Source of the DNA: a virus
Strand: one strand, 5' to 3'
Length of the DNA: 32,864 nucleotides
Virus record (IMG/VR): IMGVR_UViG_3300007765_000024
Location: 1 to 32,864 of that record
Shown here: in pieces, positions 10,353 to 32,864 of the stretch
Numbering within the stretch: the stretch's first letter is position 1
Layout: every line of letters starts with the position of its first letter
Notes under the pieces: generated by a model
Database searches by the model: none
What the model saw: the letters and a program-made list of their open reading frames with translations, nothing else
Told to the model about the DNA's origin: nothing
Made by a program: the position numbers and the translations under genes

Positions 10353-10876
10353 TGTGCTGTTTCCTTTTTTGTTATTCCATCCATGTATTCAAGTTCGCCG
10401 TTACGGAAGCCGCCGCATACGCCGCCATCTTCCACGCTGCCCCACAGTCCTGTTTCCGAATCCTTTTCATACTCATCAAGTTCAATCACAGACCAGTCAG
10501 TTGCTAAGGCAAATCGCTTCGCTTCTTCAAGATCAACAAACTCCCCGCAACACTCTCGCCCGTCTTCATGTTCCCACGCACCGACAACAATCTTAGTTAA
10601 AACAAAGCAAGTGGTTGCTTTGTGGTGCGCGGGGATGGTTGGGATAAACTCCGCACCAACTCCACCGATCCATGTTGCAACATTGCCACAATCATCATGC
10701 CAAAAATCCCATACGATTTTACCGTAAGCATTTTTCAAAACCAATTCGCCTTCAATCCAAAACTCGTTCCAAGTAAACCTGCGTTTTCTTTTGTGCATTT
10801 TTGACATGACAAACTTTTCACCAAGTTTTGCCTCAAACTTTTTCATTGTTGTTTTTGTTTTTTCAAACTTTCTCAT
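10349..10876 (-). CDS. Hypothetical protein, 175 aa
   Basis: Unrecognised 175-residue protein. ATG 10876 is chosen for its AAAAGGAA site and ATGA coupling. Basic N-terminus (KKFEAKLGEKFVMSKMHKRK) followed by an aromatic, acidic core (FTWNEFWIEGELVL, KIVWDFWHDDCGNV) and a Gly-rich C-terminus. Its last residues, KKETAQ, are the same as those of the upstream gene because both stops sit in a copied start-site segment. Function unknown. Confidence 0.6.
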   Translation of the reverse strand: MRKFEKTKTTMKKFEAKLGEKFVMSKMHKRKRRFTWNEFWIEGELVLKNAYGKIVWDFWHDDCGNVATWIGGVGAEFIPTIPAHHKATTCFVLTKIVVGAWEHEDGRECCGEFVDLEEAKRFALATDWSVIELDEYEKDSETGLWGSVEDGGVCGGFRNGELEYMDGITKKETAQ

Positions 10877-11322
10877 TGTGCTGTTTCCTTTTGTTCTTCG
10901 TTTATGCGTTTGCAATTTTGTTTGTCCGCCTCTCTAGGAATAATGCCAGTATCAAGCATTAATTTCATCTTCATTTCTCTGGCGTTAAGGGCGGTTCTGA
11001 TAAACAGAAGCCTTACTTTGTTATTACTAGCACCATCTCTAGTAACCTCACCTGTTTTAGGGTCGACCGAGGCGCCGCCAGAACTTGCTTGGCTAGCCTC
11101 AAAAAGACAAACTTCTTCCATTTTATCTAAAAACATGAGGGAGTTGTAGAGCCAACGTTCAATCTCGATCCCACCTTCACAAAGTTGCGTGCGGGATTTT
11201 GGAAACCAGATTTCCGAATGCAAAAGACCGTTTTCAGTGTCTGTTTCGCAGTCCATCAAAAAGGCCTTTTCAGTTTCTCGTTTAAGTGTTGCGTTTAATT
11301 TAATTGTTTCATTTGTAGTCAT
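10873..11322 (-). CDS. Hypothetical protein with duplicated N-terminal module
   Basis: A 149-residue protein. Residues 1-60 (containing ETEKAFLMDCETD, IWFPKSRTQLCEGGIEIE) are almost identical to residues 1-60 of the primase-like gene at 11651-12487; the identity includes the ribosome-binding site. The module resembles a small beta-rich phage domain in which an ETEKA strand is followed by a WFPKSQ-type strand. From residue 61 the proteins diverge. The unique part here (~90 residues) is helical and may be the module's native partner; it ends in KETAQ. Confidence 0.65.
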   Translation of the reverse strand: MTTNETIKLNATLKRETEKAFLMDCETDTENGLLHSEIWFPKSRTQLCEGGIEIERWLYNSLMFLDKMEEVCLFEASQASSGGASVDPKTGEVTRDGASNNKVRLLFIRTALNAREMKMKLMLDTGIIPREADKQNCKRINEEQKETAQ

Positions 11323-11352
11323 TGTTTTTCCCTTTCGTTGTGCCTTGCGGCG
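11143..11352. repeat. 210-bp direct repeat, copy 1
   Basis: Matches 12308-12517 at roughly 95% by eye. It contains the first 60 codons of the 10873-11322 gene, its ribosome-binding site and the upstream GCC-GCAA-GGC element. Confidence 0.9.
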
Positions 11353-11356
11353 GTTG

Positions 11357-11611
11357 TTATCCCCACTGTTGCGTTATGTCTTGCCCTATGTCGTGCAACA
11401 AGTTCCATTGTTCGTGAAGGCTCAAACCCTCTTGGGTTGCACATTGCGAAGTGCCGTTGCCGTCATCATATTTCTTGCCTTCAATCTTCAAAAACTTTTC
11501 TTCGATGTATCCTTGTTGCAATTCAATGTTTGCCCACACCTTTGCTTTGCTGAAACGCATTGCTGTTGGGTCTTTGATTTCTTTTCCTTTGTTGTCATAA
11601 ACTATTGTCAT
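11357..11611 (-). CDS. Hypothetical protein, 84 aa
   Basis: Unrecognised 84-residue protein. The N-terminal half is basic and beta/helical (TIVYDNKGKEIKDPTAMRFS, then KVWANIELQQG); the C-terminal half is acidic and Gln-rich. No motif or membrane segment. GAAAGGAATTACAG precedes ATG 11611. It sits between the two genes that share the duplicated N-terminal module. Confidence 0.55.
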   Translation of the reverse strand: MTIVYDNKGKEIKDPTAMRFSKAKVWANIELQQGYIEEKFLKIEGKKYDDGNGTSQCATQEGLSLHEQWNLLHDIGQDITQQWG

Positions 11612-11650: not shown

Positions 11651-12487
11651 TTATGCAGTTGCCAACAATTGGCACTGCGCGTTTCGTTTATGGTTCATCG
11701 AACCGCACAATCGCATGATGCGCGATGGGTTTTTGATACACTTATCAGAACCCAACGATTCAATCAACTCGCATTGTGCGATTTTCCACTGTTTTGTTGT
11801 TTTGTTTTTGTCGCAAAACCAATATGCGTGCGTGCCATCCACGCGCCCAGATGAAACAAGCACATCAGGCGCGCTCAATCCAGCGCTTGCTATTCGCTTC
11901 AGCGCTTCCGATTTATTCGCATCGTCAAAATCCACAAAATTCACGCGAAACGTTTTTATATCTGAATCTTTTGCGCAGCCCATTGCACCAGAACCTGTTG
12001 ATTCGCTTCGCGGGTTTGCCCCAAAATATAATGACCAATCGGCGGTGTTGTGAACCGCTAACCAATCAATCAAATCTAAATCGTCCTTTTCAATTGGTGC
12101 TTGGCGATAAAAACTTGCCGCGCCACCACGTTTTGCAAGCGCACGAAATTCCACCCAATCGCCATCGGCGAATAGTGTGTTAATTTGCTGTTGCGCTTGC
12201 GTGAAATCAACCGGTAAATTTTCCGTTGCGCGTTTTTGCGCTTTTTTTATCTTGTTTGTCAACTCGATGAAGCAAATAAAATCCGCATTCATTTCTTTTG
12301 CTTTTGCGTTGTAGAGCCAACTTTCAATCTCGATCCCACCTTCACAAAGTTGCGTGCGGGATTTTGGAAACCAGATTTCCGAATGCGAAAGACCGTTTTC
12401 AGTGTCTGTTTCACAGTCCATCAAAAAAGCCTTTTCAGTTTCTCGTTTAAGTGTTGCGTTTAATTTAGTTGTTTCATTTGTAGTCAT
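11651..12487 (-). CDS. Chimeric PrimPol/RepB-type primase
   Basis: A 278-residue fusion. Residues 1-60 are a copied module (see 10873-11322). After residue 61 the sequence becomes an archaeo-eukaryotic-type primase like those in RepB-primase/DUF3987 phage proteins: VDFDD (185-189) for metal binding, VSSGRVDGTHAYWF (211-224) with the conserved His, and SRIMRLCGSMNHK (255-267). It would make RNA or DNA primers at phage forks. The C-terminus stops soon after the primase core, so any helicase domain is absent. The native N-terminus appears to have been replaced. GAAAGGAAAAAA precedes ATG 12487. Confidence 0.7.
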   Translation of the reverse strand: MTTNETTKLNATLKRETEKAFLMDCETDTENGLSHSEIWFPKSRTQLCEGGIEIESWLYNAKAKEMNADFICFIELTNKIKKAQKRATENLPVDFTQAQQQINTLFADGDWVEFRALAKRGGAASFYRQAPIEKDDLDLIDWLAVHNTADWSLYFGANPRSESTGSGAMGCAKDSDIKTFRVNFVDFDDANKSEALKRIASAGLSAPDVLVSSGRVDGTHAYWFCDKNKTTKQWKIAQCELIESLGSDKCIKNPSRIMRLCGSMNHKRNAQCQLLATA

Positions 12488-12517
12488 TGTTTTTTCCTTT
12501 CTTTTTGCCTTGCGGCG
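12308..12517. repeat. 210-bp direct repeat, copy 2
   Basis: Counterpart of 11143-11352, ending exactly at codon 60 (the Leu-Tyr-Asn codons) of the primase fusion. Confidence 0.9.
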
Positions 12518-12532
12518 TTGGTTCGCACCAAG

Positions 12533-12742
12533 TTATGCGGTTACTGAATTGATTTTTTCTAGTCTTTCTTTCCATACTTTCAACTCTGCGTTGTAATAGG
12601 CATGGTTGGCTTTGTATTCTTCTTCTTGGCAAGCGGGGTGATGCCGGTTGAGGTTAAGTGATTGAAGCATGGCTCTGAAGTAAGCGATGTTGGCTTCGCA
12701 TTCTTTTCTGGTTTCTTGGTTTGTTGTTTCGTTTGTAGTCAT
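12533..12742 (-). CDS. First early gene: coiled-coil protein, 69 aa
   Basis: A 69-residue protein, first gene after the early promoter. ATG 12742 is chosen for the GAAAGGAAAAAACA site; an upstream in-frame ATG lies in the leader. Its first seven residues, MTTNETT, and ribosome-binding site match those of the duplicated module genes. The remainder is helical and charged (KECEANIAYFRAMLQSL, AELKVWKERLEKI), consistent with a coiled coil. Being first, it may act on host takeover, but its role is unknown. Confidence 0.65.
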   Translation of the reverse strand: MTTNETTNQETRKECEANIAYFRAMLQSLNLNRHHPACQEEEYKANHAYYNAELKVWKERLEKINSVTA

Positions 12743-12769
12743 TGTTTTTTCCTTTCTTTGACTAAGATT

Positions 12770-12798
12770 ATTATACACTATATATCGACATTGTGCAA
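12770..12798 (-). promoter_or_regulatory. Strong early promoter
   Basis: Minus strand: a perfect TATAAT (complement of 12770-12775), a 17-bp AT-rich spacer and TTGCAC (complement of 12793-12798). Transcription would start near 12763, just upstream of the first early gene's ribosome-binding site. The -35 is poor, so an activator or repressor may act here. Confidence 0.75.
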
Positions 12799-13317: not shown

Positions 13318-14091
13318 CTAGAAATGGATCAATTCAGCGTGCCAAGCGTTTGCGCCGAGCCGATCAGCACGACCAACTTTTGTCTCGCCGATAAGGCAAG
13401 CCCTGCCCCACTGTTGTATGTCAAACCTATTTGTGTAGTCTGGTCTTGATTCAAAAGCCATGTAGCCAACGTTCGCAAAGTGCCACGGCAACTTTACCCT
13501 TGCCGTTCTTTTGCATTGTGTTGGCGGGACTGGTCGATGCGTATGCCCTCGCACAATCAATCTGTGAGCATGGCCACCGCAAGCCATCGCCAATTGAATC
13601 GATTCGAGTTCGTCAGAGTTTGCACCAGCAGCAAAACCATGTGCAAAGATTACTGCGCCGAGTTGATAGCATCCTCTTGCTCCATGTCGATAGGGAACAT
13701 GCTTCCACCTATTGTATTCATCGGCAACGCCGTACATTAAACGTGGGTTACAAATATCTCGCAAGTCTCTTTTGATCCTGCGCGAATCTGGTCGTTGAAT
13801 GTTATCATCGTGATTGCCATCAAGCAAAACCAATTTACAATCGCTGGGCAATGCTTCGCGGATTCTTCTAAGCATATCCGCAGCAACACAAAACTCTTCA
13901 TAAAGTGAATGATCGCTCGGATCATCGTTGTGAACACTCGCGGCCTCAGCGTCAACAACATCACCCAAATGAATAAAATGTGTCAACTGTTTTCGGCTTC
14001 GAAGTCCCGCAAGTAATTTCCCGATTGCCTTTTCACTTTGATAAGGGCAATGCGTGCAACTGATCGCAGCAAATCTTGCGTATTGTGCCAT
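13318..14091 (-). CDS. Calcineurin-like metallophosphoesterase
   Basis: A 257-residue member of the metallophosphoesterase fold: HLGDVVD (GDxxD), LDGNHDD (GNHD), FAHG and RGHTHRP (GHTH) are all present. The usual first metal ligand, the Asp of D-x-H, is replaced by Cys in ISCTHCP, which may change metal use. Related phage proteins are nucleases or phosphodiesterases. It is the last gene of the tail block, one base after the fibre gene, followed by a terminator. It may process nucleic acid or act late in infection; substrate unknown. Confidence 0.8.
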   Translation of the reverse strand: MAQYARFAAISCTHCPYQSEKAIGKLLAGLRSRKQLTHFIHLGDVVDAEAASVHNDDPSDHSLYEEFCVAADMLRRIREALPSDCKLVLLDGNHDDNIQRPDSRRIKRDLRDICNPRLMYGVADEYNRWKHVPYRHGARGCYQLGAVIFAHGFAAGANSDELESIQLAMACGGHAHRLIVRGHTHRPVPPTQCKRTARVKLPWHFANVGYMAFESRPDYTNRFDIQQWGRACLIGETKVGRADRLGANAWHAELIHF

Positions 14092-29871: not shown

Positions 29872-30350
29872 CCCGTGAGGAATTTCATCTTGTCCTCAGC
29901 CCTTGAAGTTTGCGAATCTTGCACGGTTTGTACGCGAGATCTTGCAGATGGTGTCAAACCAAATTCACAAAGCATATCTTTCAATTGTTTGGCGTAGGCT
30001 TTTGACATTGAAACGTATGGCGTTTGTTGCAAGTATTTTGTTTTGCCTGCATCGTCTTTGATCGGATAAACATCCCCATATTTTTTAAGCATATCTTGCG
30101 ATCTTCGCCAATTTGCATACGTTTCGCAAAGCAAAGCCAGTGCCGTTCGATCCGCAACAGTCAAAACATTCAGATCAACAAGCATTGGTGCAAGTTCGTC
30201 CCAACAAGCCTTGGCATTCTCACCAAGATATTCTGGCATTTCTGGAATTGCAACTTCGGGTTGCGGTTCGTTTTTATTTATGTCAGCACGCCACGAACCT
30301 CGAAGTTTTAACATCGCTGTTGGCGTTGGCTTTGTTCCTCTTTTACCCAT
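29868..30350 (-). CDS. Terminase small subunit (P27 family)
   Basis: A 160-residue small terminase: GKRGTKPTPTAMLKLRGSWR, then WDELAPMLVDLNVLTVADRT and a C-terminal LKDMLCEFGLTPSARSRVQ motif typical of the P27 family. It recognises packaging DNA. Its ATGGGTAA start overlaps the upstream methyltransferase stop by 8 bp, the same junction used by the next two upstream pairs. Confidence 0.9.
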   Translation of the reverse strand: MGKRGTKPTPTAMLKLRGSWRADINKNEPQPEVAIPEMPEYLGENAKACWDELAPMLVDLNVLTVADRTALALLCETYANWRRSQDMLKKYGDVYPIKDDAGKTKYLQQTPYVSMSKAYAKQLKDMLCEFGLTPSARSRVQTVQDSQTSRAEDKMKFLTG

Positions 30351-31101
30351 TTGATAATACCGCCTTTTTATTTGTTAGATTTTCCCAACGCTTCACAATC
30401 ACATCACAATACAACGGGTCAATCTCCATGCCGTAGCATTTGCGGTTGAGTTGTTCGCAAGCGATGAGTGTTGTTCCGCTTCCCATGAATGGGTCGAGAA
30501 CCAATCCATGCAAAGTCGTGCTGTTCTTTATTTGATAGCCGAACAATTCAACGGGCTTCATTGTTGGATGTTCTTTTGAATTGTGCGGTTTGTCAAACTC
30601 AAGCACTGTGGTTTGCTTTCTGTCTGAATACCAATTGTGTGATGCACCAGATTTCCACCCATACAAACATGGTTCATGTATCCAATGGTAGTCTTGCCTT
30701 CCCATAACCAAACTGCTCTTTTTCCATATCAAACACTGCTTTACTTCCTGACCGCAATCACGAATAGAACCCCTGAAATTATATCCTTCCGAATCAGAGT
30801 GCCACACATAAAACGCAGAACCAGATTCCATATTTATGAATGATTTTTCAAACACTGAATTTAAGAACATTCTGAATTCTTTATCTTCTTTGTGGTCGTT
30901 CTGCACCACCTTGCCATCTGCTCTGCGGTTTCTTGCTTTTGCTTGTTCTGGTGTTTCATTCATTCCCAATGCCACATTGTATGGTGGGTCTGTTAGAAGC
31001 ATGTCTGCCTTATCTCCATCCATCAACCTTGCAACATCATCTTCACTCGTTGAATCGCCACAGAGCAAGCGGTGTTTGGACTTCAGTTTCAACTTACCCA
31101 T
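30343..31101 (-). CDS. DNA N6/N4 methyltransferase (MTase 2)
   Basis: A 252-residue amino-methyltransferase of the beta-type motif order: DPPYNVAL (motif IV, catalytic) first, then DPFMGSGTTLIACEQ (motif I, SAM binding) near the C-terminus. It begins KLKLKSKHRLLCGDSTSEDD, the sequence that in fused ParB-methyltransferases follows GDLW-x-LG. Target base is uncertain. ATG 31101 is favoured over an in-frame start at 31119. Its N- and C-termini are nearly the same as MTase 1, a tandem duplication. Confidence 0.85.
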   Translation of the reverse strand: MGKLKLKSKHRLLCGDSTSEDDVARLMDGDKADMLLTDPPYNVALGMNETPEQAKARNRRADGKVVQNDHKEDKEFRMFLNSVFEKSFINMESGSAFYVWHSDSEGYNFRGSIRDCGQEVKQCLIWKKSSLVMGRQDYHWIHEPCLYGWKSGASHNWYSDRKQTTVLEFDKPHNSKEHPTMKPVELFGYQIKNSTTLHGLVLDPFMGSGTTLIACEQLNRKCYGMEIDPLYCDVIVKRWENLTNKKAVLSNG

Positions 31102-32101
31102 TGCACACCGCCTTCTCACCTGTCAAGTTCTCCCACCGCTTGACGATGACATCGCAATACAACGGGTCGATTTCCATGCCATAGCATTTGCGGTTCATTT
31201 GTTCGCAAGCGATAAGTTCTGGACAAGTTCCCGCAAAGGGAACGCCAACCGCATCGCCTTCTTCGCTGCTTGACTTGATTGCCCTCGCCACCATTTCCAC
31301 AGGCTTCGGTGTTGCGTGTCCATGTCGTTCTTCGCCTGAAACTCTTTCAAACTGCCACACATCCGTCATGTTGTCGTGGGTGTTATTGAAGAACGCTCTT
31401 GTTGCGTAAAACTCCCGCTTGAGTTCGTCATACTCCCGCTTGAATGCGCCATGCTCCCGCATTGCTTCATCTCGCCAAGTGTCGTATGTTTCTTTTGTTG
31501 GCATCATCCACTGAGATTTATCAAACCAATGACAACCACTCTTTTCGGAATGACCTGCCAAACGCTTGAACTTTGAAATACTCCACCCTGTTTTCTTCTT
31601 TTCTTTTTTCAGGTAGTTCACGATTGAATCCCACCCATGCCAATAGTTGTCGGCGTTGTTGTTGAAACCTTGCTCGCCAACCATGAAGAACAGGCAGCGT
31701 TCGGTCGCAGTAGCAAACATGCGGTGCTGTTCTGATCCCATGCCCATCGCGTTGCCCTTGTCCCACACAATCTCATTCCGCATGGTCAAGCGTTCCGAAT
31801 CCTGCAACCCGCCTTGATACCACAACCGCCATAAGTCCTCGGCGTTGCCCCAAATGTACACGCTCCCATTGTCTGCGGTTTTTGTTCGCCAAGCGTTCCA
31901 CCATTGCATCTGAAACTTGTCCAACTTTTCTGCGTACAAATTATCGTTTGCAATGCCGTCTTTCTCTTTTCCCATTCCATAGGGCGGGTCTGCGTGTATC
32001 ATCACAAGCGAAGCATCACCAACAAGACGAGCAACATTCTCGCTGTCTGTTGTATCGCCACACAACAAACGATGCTTGGATTTCAGTTTCAATTTACCCA
32101 C
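31094..32101 (-). CDS. DNA methyltransferase with altered motif I (MTase 1)
   Basis: A 335-residue protein starting at GTG 32101 with KLKLKSKHRLLCGDTTDSEN and DPPYGMGK (motif IV). The middle ~200 residues are unrelated to MTase 2 in length and may hold a larger recognition domain. Motif I reads GVPFAGTCPELIACEQ instead of DPF-x-GSG-x-T, so SAM binding may be weaker. The C-terminal CYGMEIDPLYCDVIVKRWE matches MTase 2. Overlaps neighbours by 8 bp on both sides. Confidence 0.75.
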   Translation of the reverse strand: MGKLKLKSKHRLLCGDTTDSENVARLVGDASLVMIHADPPYGMGKEKDGIANDNLYAEKLDKFQMQWWNAWRTKTADNGSVYIWGNAEDLWRLWYQGGLQDSERLTMRNEIVWDKGNAMGMGSEQHRMFATATERCLFFMVGEQGFNNNADNYWHGWDSIVNYLKKEKKKTGWSISKFKRLAGHSEKSGCHWFDKSQWMMPTKETYDTWRDEAMREHGAFKREYDELKREFYATRAFFNNTHDNMTDVWQFERVSGEERHGHATPKPVEMVARAIKSSSEEGDAVGVPFAGTCPELIACEQMNRKCYGMEIDPLYCDVIVKRWENLTGEKAVCNG

Positions 32102-32738: not shown

Positions 32739-32864
32739 CCTTGTAGCGATTAAACCTACCCCCCCTGTGTGTTGCAGCGTACCACAAAAATCATCTTGTG
32801 GCTTTGAAAACAATCTTGTCGCCTTGTGTTTTAACAGCATGACACTTGTTTCACAGTGGTTGAA
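32739..32864. repeat. Right copy of imperfect terminal direct repeat
   Basis: Matches 1-127 with six differences: T to C after the C-run, one fewer A at 32785-32790, and four base changes in the HNH coding part. In the minus-strand HNH frame two are synonymous, one is Asp to Gly, and one turns the conserved Cys of the last CxxC into TGA. So this partial HNH copy would be non-functional if real; it may reflect strain variants or end-of-contig errors. Confidence 0.85.

Follow-up and report, generated by a model that had tools for sequence, protein, structure and literature searches.

The window analysed here, a phage contig of 32,864 bases that carries terminase, portal, head and tail genes, encodes a protein in which a small beta-barrel module stands in front of an AEP primase-polymerase core, and the start of its gene recurs at the head of a neighbouring gene for a 149-residue protein. 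All genes of this region lie on the minus strand (Table 1). We consider it fairly likely that a free-standing module was fused to an AEP core lacking its helicase half, and that the leader and 60 codons of the fusion gene were copied to the 149-residue gene at a later time; a docking role of the module is a weaker proposal.

Table 1. Genes, domains, repeat copies and junction elements of the repeat region, in the order of transcription
Feature	Position	Strand	Basis
Promoter-like site TGCACA-16-TATAAT upstream of the 69-aa gene, weak	12770..12797	-	3 in region vs 1.5 expected
Third leader copy: ribosome site and MTTNET, heads the 69-aa gene	12720..12759	-	95%/40 nt vs primase copy; pattern search
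69-aa gene, first of the run	12533..12742	-	ORF
Repeat copy B, leader and 60 codons, head of the primase fusion gene	12308..12530	-	repeat comparison
18-bp element CGCCGCAAGGCANAANGA, junction of 69-aa gene and primase gene	12500..12517	-	exact match
Fusion gene, 278 aa: N-terminal module, linker and AEP primase-polymerase core	11651..12487	-	ORF; PHROG matches; AF2 pLDDT 84
Complete module in the primase, residues 1-66: predicted beta-barrel 6-55 and helix 56-66	12290..12487	-	profile without window, residues 4-66; AF2
Linker, residues 67-90, mostly low-confidence predicted helix	12218..12289	-	AF2 blocks 71-90, mean pLDDT 53-58
AEP core, residues 91-278	11654..12217	-	VIA-align to 6zp9_A; residue alignment
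18-bp element CGCCGCAAGGCANAANGA, junction of primase gene and 84-aa gene, directly behind the primase stop codon	11631..11648	-	
84-aa gene, between the two repeat-bearing genes	11357..11611	-	ORF
18-bp element CGCCGCAAGGCANAANGA, junction of 84-aa gene and 149-aa gene	11335..11352	-	
Repeat copy A, leader and 60 codons, head of the 149-aa gene	11143..11365	-	repeat comparison
149-aa gene: 60 module residues and an 89-residue tail	10873..11322	-	ORF; module match ends at residue 61

The primase core of the fusion protein

Fold comparison with VIA-align showed that the best match of the AEP core was S-2L PrimPol (6zp9_A; Z 19.6, 2.4 Å, 167 residues), followed by RepB' (3h20, Z 17.2). S-2L PrimPol also matched the core by sequence (E 1e-6), and phrog_36873 matched residues 166-271 of the primase (E 5e-13). 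In the residue alignment D186, D188, H220, D248 and R259 of the window protein correspond to E85, D87, H118, D146 and R157 of S-2L PrimPol; in addition, S-2L K115 aligns with D217 and S116 with G218, and the S-2L steric gate Y63 had no reliable counterpart position in this alignment. Judged from the predicted structure and the alignment, residues 91-278 are a complete AEP core in which the catalytic residues are kept, and the PrimPol-type core that the initial annotation had recognised was borne out by this fold and these residues.

Residue 278 is the last of both the protein and its AEP core, and a helix-bundle or PriCT domain is missing. The missing helix bundle is no bar to membership in the AEP superfamily, and it matters for full primase function. 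Relatives of the primase are about 700-900 residues long, the complete ones extending about 700 residues further than the window protein, and a tblastn search with a 908-residue relative (from L042) found the AEP part only, the C-terminal and helicase half being nowhere in the window. In the four closest relatives (L041-L044, 53-56% identical) the N-terminus is short and the module is absent; primases of this kind, which the initial annotation had proposed to look for among relatives, thus exist. The window primase starts with MTTNE and that of L041 with MTTNEN, a stretch too short to judge inheritance from an L041-like ancestor. In L041 itself, a probable single-base frameshift in a G run near the contig end (L041:6490-6520) truncates an otherwise full-length primase.

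S-2L PrimPol (PP-N190, PDB 6ZP9; PMC8065100) shares the AEP fold and the catalytic residues with the window protein, but its architecture is the reverse: PriCT-2 and a helicase follow the core and no N-terminal module precedes it. The NrS-1 and ORF904 enzymes require the helix bundle behind the core for priming and not for extension (PMC8718748), and by analogy with these enzymes the window protein would be better at extending primers than at making them. The same requirement, together with the loss from the window of the regions that relatives carry behind the core, could be taken to mean that the primase is a decaying remnant, with its helicase half gone, its AEP core dead, and the fusion and the copy being neutral recombination debris. 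We regard this as rather unlikely: the whole AEP fold and the catalytic residues are intact, the reading frame is uninterrupted, is preceded by a good ribosome site and recurs unchanged in a sister contig, and the AEP domain of S-2L PrimPol retains polymerase activity by itself (PMC8065100).

The module and its family

In the AF2 model of the module (pLDDT 83), five or six strands are predicted to form a small beta-barrel and residues 56-66 a helix behind it, and the full-length model gave the same result. The module matched phrog_8389 (E 2e-5), phrog_8580 (E 3e-4) and phrog_12732, PHROG matches generally lying at E 1e-4 to 1e-3, and a profile that had been built without the window matched it at E 2e-13. 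The family has the pattern RETEKA-L-E ... W-PKSQ ... W-L--K, and its usual form elsewhere is a free-standing protein of 60-105 residues in many unrelated phages, often in replication gene clusters. The proteins of phrog_8580, phrog_8389 and phrog_12732 (for example Orf58 of Pseudomonas phage PAE1 and a protein of Bordetella phage FP1 annotated as 'putative DNA primase') share the 60-70 residue domain, the motif and often the replication-locus context with the window module, but they are free-standing or have a small extra N-terminal segment, and none was found fused to a primase; in the window the module is not free-standing and is fused to the AEP core and to an 89-residue tail. The initial annotation had treated the module as a discrete domain, and this was supported.

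We collected free-standing relatives from phage records and viral contigs (L013-L021 and L026-L038). The module records comprise about 50 from Pseudomonas phages, 8 from Bordetella phages and 29 from Flavobacterium phages, and the genomes that have it include Yuavirus, Vojvodinavirus, Flavobacterium and Bacillus phages and viruses of methanogenic archaea. A search of plasmids found none, and in bacterial and archaeal genomes, taken one per species, the module was at one locus only. No possible donor gene for the fused module was found above about 44% identity. Two side observations concern the architecture of family members. At L014:2121-2600 the module is C-terminal, behind a different N-terminal segment, another sign of domain shuffling, and at L039:1665-2126, in Flavobacterium frigidimaris, a 154-residue protein apparently has two module copies and lies near a large relaxase-like protein.

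Pfam and NCBIfam gave no match for the module or the 149-residue protein, and a profile search by sequence among solved structures found nothing for the module. Fold matches in the PDB were weak and scattered over unrelated large proteins (best E 0.5, Z 4.0), and we did not take these as relatives. The fold search of a viral model library gave many hits to small phage proteins that are uncharacterised, which fits the family and is silent on function. One record labels a family member 'S1-like RNA-binding', and in NCBIfam ribosomal protein S1 showed up as a trace match well under the cut-off; both are leads only. Because no solved structure convincingly resembles the module, it can only be guessed that it binds DNA or a protein partner, and the partner-binding or regulatory role that the initial annotation had suggested is plausible and putative.

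The repeat, the probable order of events and the gene junctions

Positions 11143-11365 and 12308-12530 form a direct repeat with a spacing of 1165 (94% over 223 nt). It spans the intergenic leader, the ribosome site and 60 codons of both genes. The homology has sharp edges: downstream it ends after codon 60, and its opposite edge lies at CGCCGCAAGGCA, a short leader element. The initial annotation had described about 95% identity with an abrupt end at the same codon, and this was confirmed: between 11143-11352 and 12308-12517, 202 of the 210 bases are identical (96%), and the match stops after codon 60 in both genes. The interval 11651-12487, to which the repeat had been assigned, is the primase ORF itself, and the repeat lies partly beyond it. 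Five of the 60 codons differ between the copies, three of them with an amino-acid change (residues 7, 34 and 56) and two silently (dN 0.021, dS 0.057). In addition, the leader and the first six codons stand once more in front of the 69-residue gene, as a third copy that the initial annotation did not mention. According to the models, the 60 repeated residues make up most of the small beta-barrel domain, and the repeat ends five residues inside the C-terminal helix.

The profile built without the window matched the primase through residue 66 and the 149-residue protein only to residue 61. The primase tail SWLYNAKAKEM fits the C-terminal helix of the module (compare SWIIDAKQKEV in L013). Random tails from the same phage scored like the primase tail in 5 of 2000 cases, and the tail of the 149-residue protein scored average. 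Because the copy in the 149-residue gene is cut inside the last helix and the copy in the primase gene keeps this helix, the 149-residue gene is probably the recent recipient of the leader and 60 codons, a call of direction that we make with moderate confidence and that depends on six tail residues. In the simplest order, the fusion of module and primase is an older and separate step. No intermediate phage between the proposed states was found, and no DNA trace of the module donor for the primase fusion remains.

The initial annotation had proposed that one of the two genes recently gained a new N-terminus, which agrees with these data, the likelier gene being that of the 149-residue protein. 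It had also proposed the reverse direction, in which the module comes from the 149-residue gene or its ancestor and the primase gene has recently received a copy of that gene's 5' end. In favour of this, length and identity are symmetrical between the two copies, and the primase must have gained the module at some time, as the closest primases lack it. However, residues 61-66 fit the module family in the primase copy and not in the other, so that recent copying as the source of the primase module was not upheld, and we hold this direction to be unlikely. Nor did the 149-residue 'small unknown protein' prove to be the home of the module, the home form being the free-standing protein. The initial annotation had also suggested a database search of the unique parts. 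On the primase side it found relatives without the module; for the 89-residue tail, neither phage records nor viral contigs gave a convincing relative that could mark its gene as the module's home. Alternatively, a third, free-standing module gene, since lost, might have given its 5' end to both genes, or older paralogues might have been homogenised by gene conversion. Free-standing module genes are the common form, and the three copies of the leader speak for copying more than once, but a third module is absent from the window and a single event accounts for 96% identity with an abrupt stop, which makes either process unlikely. Finally, misassembly is possible in principle in a contig from an uncultured virus record, but an assembly or chimera artefact is hardly conceivable here: a separate sister contig (L003), 99.7% identical to the window, has both copies with the same differences, so the repeat is no one-off assembly error.

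Short conserved sequences at gene boundaries serve phages as recombination joints for mosaic exchange. In the window, the 18-bp element has three exact matches, one at each of three consecutive junctions, where 0.5 would be expected even at 3 mismatches. The repeat is carried at two of the three junctions that have this element, and the shortened C-terminal end of the primase coincides with one of the elements. The phage also encodes a Sak4-like annealing protein and an SSB-like protein. The likeness to mosaic exchange lies in gene-boundary sequences as the joints; the difference is that exchange here occurs within one genome and yields a new N-terminus and not a whole-gene swap. An RNA hairpin at the intergenic element, with a three-pair stem and a GCAA loop at two of the three junctions, was considered and is not claimed (z-scores no better than -2.1).

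The SAS/ESAS sequences of Cluster K mycobacteriophages (PMC3203893) are similar in that short near-identical repeats stand upstream of several start codons, over the ribosome site; in the window, the 18-bp element is common to three junctions and the ribosome-site leader to three starts. The window elements differ in sequence (compared with the published 13-bp SAS by eye only), occupy three consecutive junctions only, are without the 17-bp inverted repeats, and in two cases belong to a copy that extends 60 codons into the gene. They resemble SAS/ESAS and are probably not members.

Elsewhere in the genome, the window ends (1-127 and 32739-32864) repeat each other at 95-98%, and the genome is probably complete, circularly permuted or terminally redundant, of about 32.7 kb, with ends assembled from slightly different strains. 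Two adjacent DNA methyltransferase genes of related families (30343-32101) share a 144-nt stretch at 76% identity, a second and older duplication in the same genome. In the metallophosphoesterase gene, seven substitutions between window and sister contig lie within 22 bases (13471-13492), which looks like a small recombination tract.

Module and primase as neighbours and as a fusion

All collected loci were scanned in six frames with two profiles, giving 72 AEP frames and 50 module frames. Both profiles hit one and the same frame in the window phage, in its sister contig and in loci excised from these two, and nowhere else; the other AEP frames were all without the module (0/62). The module on primases of unrelated phages, the observation that the initial annotation had set against its own proposal, was thus searched for and is absent there. 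In these loci the fusion was seen in one phage lineage only, the window and its near-identical sister.

In Yuavirus and Vojvodinavirus, the module and the AEP primase-helicase are separate genes of one cluster. The order in FP1, PAE1 and SN1 is PolA, module and dCMP deaminase, with the AEP primase-helicase 1.3-1.7 kb downstream. Elsewhere the module directly follows a Prim-Pol protein (L017) or a D5-type primase-helicase (L018), lies between PolA and a DUF5906 protein (L014), or adjoins UDG-PolA (L035). Several neighbourhoods were uninformative, and non-replication neighbours also occur, a terminase-like gene in L013 and a relaxase-like gene in L039; therefore the link between module and primase is not universal. 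Fusion of genes that are adjacent elsewhere is a classical hint of partnership. Since the module and AEP genes are neighbours elsewhere and fused here, the arrangement is a hint of a natural partnership between the small protein and phage primases. As to naming, the free-standing module of Yuavirus and Vojvodinavirus (L095:5953-6150) is called 'putative DNA primase' in several records and is without a primase domain, and the true AEP primase-helicase downstream of it is named integrase in some records (PMC11946847).

We propose that the module would have started in phage replication loci, as a small free-standing protein with a beta-barrel fold. In a first step, the complete module with its linker would have been joined to the front of an AEP core without the C-terminal and helicase half; in a later one, the leader with its ribosome-binding site and the first 60 codons would have been copied from the primase gene onto its neighbour, creating the 149-residue protein. 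The likely route would be recombination between the near-identical leaders at neighbouring gene junctions, the short shared leaders acting as joints that would allow recombination or template switching; from their position we infer recombination at the leaders with moderate confidence. The fused module might dock or contact nucleic acid, most likely holding the primase at the phage replication machinery, a job that a separate small protein would do in other phages. A still wider reading would make the beta-barrel family a general accessory of phage primases, which here replaces the lost helix-bundle and helicase half in a minimal two-domain primase-polymerase and was given as a docking domain to a second protein for a shared partner; we think this quite unlikely.

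The type of event is ordinary phage mosaicism. What is new is an AEP primase that has this N-terminal module and is without the helicase half, a fusion unseen elsewhere in the loci examined. The region also offers a clean recent case of a domain copied onto a new gene together with its ribosome site; such a step in the birth of phage genes is seldom seen while its boundaries are still sharp. New as well is a link, open to testing, that connects phage primases with a small protein that is widespread, uncharacterised and currently annotated as hypothetical or as 'DNA primase'. If the fusion reflects a real partnership, this would be a first functional lead for the family in Pseudomonas, Bordetella, Flavobacterium and Bacillus phages and in archaeal viruses.
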